From Candidatus Methanomethylophilaceae archaeon (GTDB taxonomy: Archaea; Thermoplasmatota; Thermoplasmata; Methanomassiliicoccales; Methanomethylophilaceae), in assembly GCA_944320485.1 (NCBI GenBank), contig CALUHQ010000065.1, positions 1-42,427 on the forward strand: a stretch of DNA of 42,427 nucleotides, read 5' to 3'. Below, one piece after another: positions 18,308 through 19,672 of the stretch (position 1 is the first letter of the stretch; each line of letters starts with the position of its first letter). A program made the translations under genes and the position numbers. The notes beneath the pieces are model-generated. The model did no database searches, was not told where the DNA came from, and was given only the letters and a program-made list of their open reading frames with translations.

Positions 18308-19210
18308 ATGGAATCCGTCGGGGAGAGAATCGCCCGCCTGAAGAGGGAACGCAACGCAGTCATCCTTGTCCACAACTACTGCCTTCCCGAGGTCCAGGAC
18401 GTGGCCGACTACGTGGGGGACTCCCTGGGATTGTCCGTGAAGGCGACCCAGACGGACGCCGACGTCATAGTGTTCTGCGGCGTCACCTTCATGGCCGAGA
18501 CCGCGAAGATCCTCAACCCCGGTAAGACGGTCCTGATCCCGGACGCGGCCGCGGTGTGCGCCATGGCGCAGATGTGCAGCCCCGAGCAGATAGTCGCCGC
18601 CAGGGAGGCCAACCCCGGCAGGGAGGTCGTGGGCTATGTCAACTCCACAGCCGCCTGCAAGGCCGAGATGGATGTGTGCTGCACGTCGTCCAACGCCGTG
18701 GACATCGTGTCCTCCCTGGAGTCGTCCGGAGCAATATTCGTCCCGGACAGGAACCTGGGCACGTACGCCGCCGGGAGGTGCCCTTCCAAGGACGTCGTCC
18801 TCTGGGACGGGTTCTGCCCGATACACCAGTCCATCTCCGTGCAGCAGGTCCAGGAGCTAAAGGCGGCGCACCCGGACGCGGAGGTCCTGGCCCACCCCGA
18901 GTGCAGGTCCGAGGTTCTCGACCTCGCGGACGTCATCGGTTCCACCGAGAAGATGCTGAACCATTGCAGGGCATCAGAGAGGGACGGGTTCATCGTTCTG
19001 ACCGAGGTCGGGATGCGCCACAGGCTTGAGGCCAACTGCCCCGGCAAGAGATTCTATTTCCCGGAGCACGCGGTGTGCGGCGCCATGAAGATGGCCACGC
19101 TGTAGTCCATCGTCTCCGCGCTGGAGCGCATGGAGCCGCAGGTGGTCCTCCCGGAGGAGGTCATGGGACGGGCCCGCAGGCCCGTCGAGAGGATGATTGG
19201 CCTCTCATGA
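18308..19210 (+). CDS. nadA: Quinolinate synthase with in-frame amber codon (probable pyrrolysine readthrough)
   Basis: NadA condenses iminoaspartate with dihydroxyacetone phosphate to quinolinate using a 4Fe-4S cluster. Seen are VHNYCLPEVQDVADYVGDS, VFCGVTFMAETAKIL, YVNSTAACKAEMDVCCTSSNAV (split after ACK), PDRNLGTY, AHPECRSEV and AVCGAMKMATL. The codon after ATL is TAG (19103-19105, codon 266). The same frame then continues for 34 sense codons to TGA 19208-19210, and those residues (SALERMEPQVVLPEEV, then GRARRPVERM) match the normal NadA C-terminus. With readthrough the protein is 300 residues, the family's usual size. If TAG were a stop, that end would be lost. The last sense codon, TCA, is the reverse-strand stop of the next gene. 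Confidence 0.93.
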
Positions 19211-19672
19211 GAACATGGGGTCCTTCCTGACCGCGCTGGCCGGGATGAGGCCCTTCAGCTTGCCGTCGTTGACGTCGACGGTCTTGAAGGCGATCATGAC
19301 CAGGTGCTTGATGGTGTTCACCGAGGGCGTCCTGTCGAAGTAGCTCTGCACGATCTTGAAGTAGATCTTGGGCTCCTCGTCGGCCATGTAGAATCCGCCG
19401 TTGTTGATGTTGTTGTTGACCGTGTTGAGCTCGGGGATGAGCTTGTTGCGGGCGTCCTCGGGTATGTCGAACATCAGGTAGCAGTAGATGTTCAGCGTGA
19501 GGTTGTTGTCGTCCGCTATCATCGCCATCCCGATGGGGTTGTCGTCCCCCATGGCGCTGAGGACTATGCTGCCGTCCTCCCTCGTCTCGTAGCTCAGGTC
19601 GAGGCTTTCCAGAGCCTTCCTGGCGTTCGACAGCACCTTCGCTCCGTCGACCTTTCCGAACATGTCAACCAC
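19205..19672 (-). CDS. YbjN-domain-like protein
   Basis: A 155-residue soluble protein. The order of elements fits the YbjN/type III secretion chaperone-like fold: an N-terminal helix (VLSNARKALESLDLSY), strands around REDGSIVLSAM and NLTLNIYCYLMFDIP, the helix ELNTVNNNINNGGFYM, then PKIYFKIVQSYF and a final helix with NTIKHLVMIAFKTVD. The LNxxNxxxxxGxF pattern is typical of YbjN proteins, which have no settled biochemical role. It starts 8 bp after the citrate synthase stop on the same strand, so the two are likely co-transcribed. It is convergent with nadA: the two stop codons are adjacent. Confidence 0.75.
   Translation of the reverse strand: MVDMFGKVDGAKVLSNARKALESLDLSYETREDGSIVLSAMGDDNPIGMAMIADDNNLTLNIYCYLMFDIPEDARNKLIPELNTVNNNINNGGFYMADEEPKIYFKIVQSYFDRTPSVNTIKHLVMIAFKTVDVNDGKLKGLIPASAVRKDPMFS

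Follow-up and report, generated by a model that had tools for sequence, protein, structure and literature searches.

A TAG codon within the quinolinate synthase gene of a Methanomethylophilaceae archaeon, predicted to be read as pyrrolysine

The nadA gene of this archaeon carries an in-frame TAG at codon 266, and we consider it likely (probability about 0.8) that the gene is nevertheless intact and single, giving a full-length NadA of 300 residues with a predicted pyrrolysine at position 266, probably as a neutral substitution. In the window (the whole stretch of DNA that was analysed, 42,427 nucleotides), the plus-strand frame at 18308-19210, read in frame 1, opens with ATG and runs through 265 sense codons to the TAG, then through 34 further sense codons (sequence: SIVSALERMEPQVVLPEEVMGRARRPVERMIGLS) to a TGA, exactly as the preliminary description had read it. 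Codon 300 (TCA, 19205-19207) doubles as the antisense of the TGA of a convergent gene, such that both genes end on each other; the extended frame does, then, end where its neighbor ends, as had been stated. In the nadA frame the tail has a coding score of 0.62, against -0.19 in the best other frame, and no other plus-strand feature claims the interval. The features are as follows:

18308-19102, plus strand: nadA codons 1-265, quinolinate synthase, including Cys84, Cys170, and Cys257 (frame reading, PF02445, alignment, solved chains)
19103-19105, plus strand: in-frame TAG, codon 266, predicted to be read as pyrrolysine (direct reading; GAG in the four nearest species)
19106-19207, plus strand: nadA codons 267-300, conserved C terminus with the rest of helix 265-274 and all of helix 283-296 (alignment, Pfam, model)
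19208-19210, plus strand: TGA, true terminator of the full-length nadA frame (direct reading)
19205-19672, minus strand: convergent gene with a YbjN domain, its stop overlapping nadA codon 300 (open reading frame, domain match)

From its sequence, the gene product is predicted to have quinolinate synthase activity. PF02445 (NadA) gives one match that crosses the TAG, spanning residues 6-297 and profile positions 1-294 of 295 with an E value of 2.5e-118, and solved NadA chains align up to residues 298-299 of the window protein. Cys84, Cys170, and Cys257, which we take to be the ligands of the [4Fe-4S] cluster, are invariant in a 15-sequence alignment. An AlphaFold model of the full-length protein has a pLDDT of 96.7 and a TM score of 0.96 to solved NadA; in this model, helices 265-274 and 283-296 are lost if translation stops at the TAG, and the 265-residue form would also lack A289, P292, and M296, all invariant in the NadA alignment. 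Residue 266 is the second residue of helix 265-274. It is E in 13 and D in 7 of 29 orthologues, with R, M, S, K, or N in the rest, and from this variability and its position in the modeled helix it presumably lies at the protein surface.

We found nadA in 40 of 60 genomes (this genome and relatives of the same order). When the window protein was aligned with these, no orthologue with a readable end stopped at residue 265, and all were at least 296 residues long, in keeping with the earlier proposal that the conserved NadA C terminus is encoded after the TAG. TAG occupies codon 266 in only 1 of the 40 genes. The four nearest species (G015, G023, G014, and G027) all have GAG there, the codon that had been suggested as its precursor, and a tree of NadA residues 1-265 places this species among them, with partly weak support; the simplest history suggested by the sequences is a single change from GAG to TAG on this species' own branch. 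No second strain with nadA was seen in a scan of the contigs, which returned distant NadA only (at most ∼52% identity) and from whose set near relatives may be absent. In two other genomes (G008 and G020; L006 and L008), the nadA frame lacks its usual stop and continues to ∼467 codons, antisense to the convergent gene.

The tail bears the marks of weak constraint rather than of decay. All six tail positions at which 85% or more of 29 orthologues agree are kept (L272, E273, A289, P292, R295, and M296), and 33 of its 34 residues occur at the same position in some orthologue. Its pN/pS is 0.5-0.75, against 0.14-0.23 upstream, and the tail is the fastest-evolving part of NadA in the sister species as well. 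Among tail positions invariant in the comparison species, 8 of 24 are changed here versus 5 of 61 summed over four sisters (p = 0.007, for comparison sets that are not identical), a higher divergence that would fit partly relaxed selection. Sequence comparison thus depicts the tail as a weakly constrained segment, perhaps slightly more relaxed here, but not dead. Recombination of the tail from a distant donor was also considered and is not supported, its identity still being highest to the nearest species, though only slightly.

This divergence is one of two observations that could speak for a recent truncating nonsense mutation in a gene on its way out, many species of the genus having already lost de novo NAD synthesis. 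The other is that, among 31 genomes of the genus, nadA is present in 12 and nadC exceeds its cut-off in 12; in nearly all of the 31, the two genes are jointly present (about one-third of species) or jointly missing, and the pathway therefore seems to be lost as a unit. We nonetheless hold such a loss to be improbable here: the upstream part of nadA is strongly constrained, nearly every tail residue is acceptable to the family, there is no second lesion, aspartate dehydrogenase and NadC are present in this genome without internal stops, and the cell decodes TAG as sense elsewhere. NadB was not found by sequence search of this genome. Taken together, the gene contents suggest that only some species of the genus make NAD de novo and that this genome has kept the pathway. 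Two nadC genes score above the curated cut-off (G000:C55:1379-2164 and G000:C69:27465-28250) in a genome of 1.7 Mb, from either duplication or mixed strains.

The machinery for reading TAG is present. Read along one contig (C71), the genes are two mtmB copies that contain an in-frame TAG, a tRNA whose anticodon loop reads CUA, pylS (above its curated cut-off), pylB and pylC one after the other, and then the start of pylD, which is as far as pylD was read. ARAGORN detected no tRNA-Pyl; the tRNA was found instead by reading the sequence upstream of pylS and folding it, which gave the CUA loop on a bulged anticodon stem. An imperfect anticodon stem has been described for tRNA-Pyl of Methanomassiliicoccales (PMC3941956). 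In-frame TAG is also found in mtbB and in two mttB-like genes of this genome. The search for pylS, pylT, and pylBCD thus yielded pylT, pylS, pylB, pylC, and the beginning of pylD, and with TAG-bearing mono-, di-, and trimethylamine methyltransferase genes in the same genome, pyrrolysine is the best reading of the nadA TAG. The mtmB genes have PYLIS-like matches below the gathering score; near the nadA TAG, there was no PYLIS match up to an E value of 10. Because the PYLIS element is reported not to be required for pyrrolysine (PMC9499178), we did not count its lack at nadA against placing NadA among the pyrrolysine proteins. As a separate observation, pylB itself ends in TAG (L039:18445-18447, on the same contig), overlapping the start of pylC; were pyrrolysine plentiful, PylB would gain 20 residues, a possible feedback.

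To place the nadA codon in its genomic setting, we counted stop codons over 716 kb, about 42% of this genome. Among 671 open reading frame ends with coding-like sequence upstream, 600 are TGA, 50 TAA, and 21 TAG; genes in the part read thus rarely end in TAG. The coding signal goes on in frame past 8 of the 21 TAG, 34 of the 600 TGA, and 9 of the 50 TAA codons. For TGA and TAA, the continuation is in many cases the following gene, whose start codon comes right behind the stop; among the TAG cases are the methyltransferases and nadA. We then applied a strict filter, which required that the sequence on both sides of the stop align locally to a homologue without gaps, that the homologue carry a sense residue at the stop, and that the coding frame be correct; homology scans without the coding-frame requirement were swamped by antisense and out-of-frame open reading frames and were kept out of the counts. 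In this genome, a sense codon of the homologue is replaced by TAG at 2 of 21 ends, compared with 1 of 650 TGA and TAA ends (one weak TGA case); in the complete sister genome, G014, the figures are 5 of 69 for TAG and 1 of 1615 for the other ends. The nadA gene fails this filter, the first eight residues of its tail being too variable.

The two cases that pass the filter here are a rubredoxin-like gene (L077:2758, contig C35) whose TAG lies nine codons from the end, at a site occupied by Lys in the G014 homologue, with 7 of the 8 residues after the TAG identical, and a short conserved protein without a Pfam family (L071:1013, minus strand, contig C29), where G014 has Tyr and 26 of the 27 residues after the TAG are identical. 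Separately, the gene for a protein of ∼760 residues contains an in-frame TAG at matching positions in this genome and the sister genome (L064:16528 and G014:C1:1448295), and TAG is therefore conserved outside the methyltransferases.

In G014, a single Pfam domain crosses the TAG in 7 of ten cases outside the methylamine methyltransferases (a prismane/hybrid-cluster protein, an MFS transporter, an ABC exporter, two acetyltransferases, a thiamine-pyrophosphate enzyme, and a helix-turn-helix protein) versus 0 of 20 control TGA and TAA stops (Fisher p = 6e-5). TAG-interrupted genes of the sister genome lie on G014:C1 at 1722690, 801607, 848765, 681723, 721476, 903857, 1380506, 1803214, and 209874, nine positions that also include TruA and nucleoside phosphorylase genes.

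Codon usage tempers these numbers: 61% of possible nonsense mutations give TAG, and because of this an excess of TAG among interruptions counts for less as evidence than the bare numbers imply (eight TAG among eight interruptions, taken alone, has p ∼0.02). What carries the argument is the combination of a pyl system with an almost complete lack of interruptions by TGA or TAA. The same considerations bear on the rival reading in which the true codon is GAG and the TAG stems from an error of sequencing or assembly, or from a minority allele that entered the metagenome consensus. This is a single genome in a fragmented, metagenome-type assembly (83 contigs, 88% completeness), the TAG is one base away from GAG, the neighbors all have GAG, and most random nonsense changes would yield TAG. 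Against an error, homologous genes interrupted by TGA or TAA are essentially unseen in this assembly, and in the complete sister genome it is common for a TAG to interrupt a domain. We regard an error as having a small chance of being correct. It is because the evidence comes from one consensus genome that error and gene decay keep this small share of the probability.

The sequence of events that we favor would begin with a G-to-T change that turned codon 266 from GAG (Glu) into TAG. The tRNA-Pyl/PylS system would then insert pyrrolysine at residue 266, and translation would continue to the TGA at 19208; with UAG decoding constitutive in this cell, the substitution would be neutral. We infer both the insertion of pyrrolysine into NadA and its efficiency, as well as the constitutive decoding and the neutrality. 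That the change is probably neutral, and not a regulatory device, follows from the location of residue 266, a variable site (E, D, S, K, R, N, or M) where a C-terminal helix begins.

The preliminary description had gone further and proposed, as an alternative to a pyrrolysine at position 266, two lengths of NadA set by pyrrolysine supply, tying NAD synthesis to methylamine metabolism. Pyrrolysine at 266 is still the best reading; the useful second length and the metabolic tie are not supported. Under such control, full-length NadA would be made only when methylamine metabolism supplies pyrrolysine, with the short form either functional or acting as a switch. A TAG in a gene of NAD synthesis must indeed make full-length NadA depend somewhat on charged tRNA-Pyl, and through the TAG that ends pylB, pyrrolysine supply could feed back on pylB. 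The short NadA, however, would be without both C-terminal helices and the invariant A289, P292, and M296; genes seldom terminate with TAG in the part of the genome read, a pattern that favors constitutive decoding; a search for a PYLIS-like element downstream of the codon gave nothing; the RNA that follows has no unusual fold (z = -1.6); and no other species of the set has the TAG. We therefore think conditional synthesis of two lengths of NadA quite unlikely. The corollary that methylamine shifts alter the NAD pool via a pyrrolysine-dependent NadA, with the divergent tail as an adaptation to such control, would be just as much of a long shot.

If full-length, pyrrolysine-containing NadA is indeed what this methanogen makes, a core cofactor pathway relies on its pyrrolysine system. 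Losing the pyl genes would then cost the cell de novo NAD synthesis, which would help to fix the sense meaning of TAG in this lineage. There is also a practical consequence: NadA would be cut short by table 11 annotation, as would other proteins of the genus, in G014 the hybrid-cluster protein, the ABC exporter, the acetyltransferases, and the thiamine-pyrophosphate enzyme among them.

How does NadA compare with known systems? The NadA of Pyrococcus horikoshii (PDB: 4zk6, 5kts) belongs to the same family, with ∼48% identity and the same full-length fold (TM 0.96), but contains no pyrrolysine, whereas the window NadA has TAG at position 266. In MtmB, MtbB, and MttB, the in-frame TAG is decoded as pyrrolysine by the same machinery, and their genes are in this genome; there, however, pyrrolysine is catalytic and conserved across species, whereas in NadA it would occupy a variable site in one species. 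For lineage-restricted pyrrolysine in Methanosarcina genes, neutral evolution has been proposed (Heinemann et al., 2009, as cited in PMC3639795). The tRNA-His guanylyltransferase (Thg1) of Methanosarcina, a housekeeping gene with a lineage-restricted TAG attributed to neutral evolution, resembles NadA in this respect. Pyrrolysine in Methanosarcina Thg1 is said to have been studied experimentally by Heinemann and colleagues in 2009, whereas that in NadA is a prediction only. A 2025 paper reportedly describes archaea that read all TAG codons as pyrrolysine. No study in the literature searched tests TAG decoding genome-wide by proteomics in Methanomassiliicoccales. The closest precedent comes from the same order: “Ca. 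Methanomethylophilus alvus” has 16 further predicted Pyl proteins, 1.6% TAG terminators, and a proposed constitutive decoding of TAG (Borrel et al., 2014; PMC4153887). Its TAG codons lie in ordinary genes (e.g., those for MtxX, Cas1, and digeranylgeranylglyceryl phosphate synthase), half of its Pyl proteins have TAG-free homologues in the other two genomes, and its use of TAG as a terminator is very low (PMC4153887). NadA is absent from Table 7 of that paper, and the Pyl proteins there are likewise predictions, with no case demonstrated as protein in that paper. NadA is, in this light, a new predicted case of a TAG habit already described in this archaeal group, ordinary for the lineage and probably accidental.
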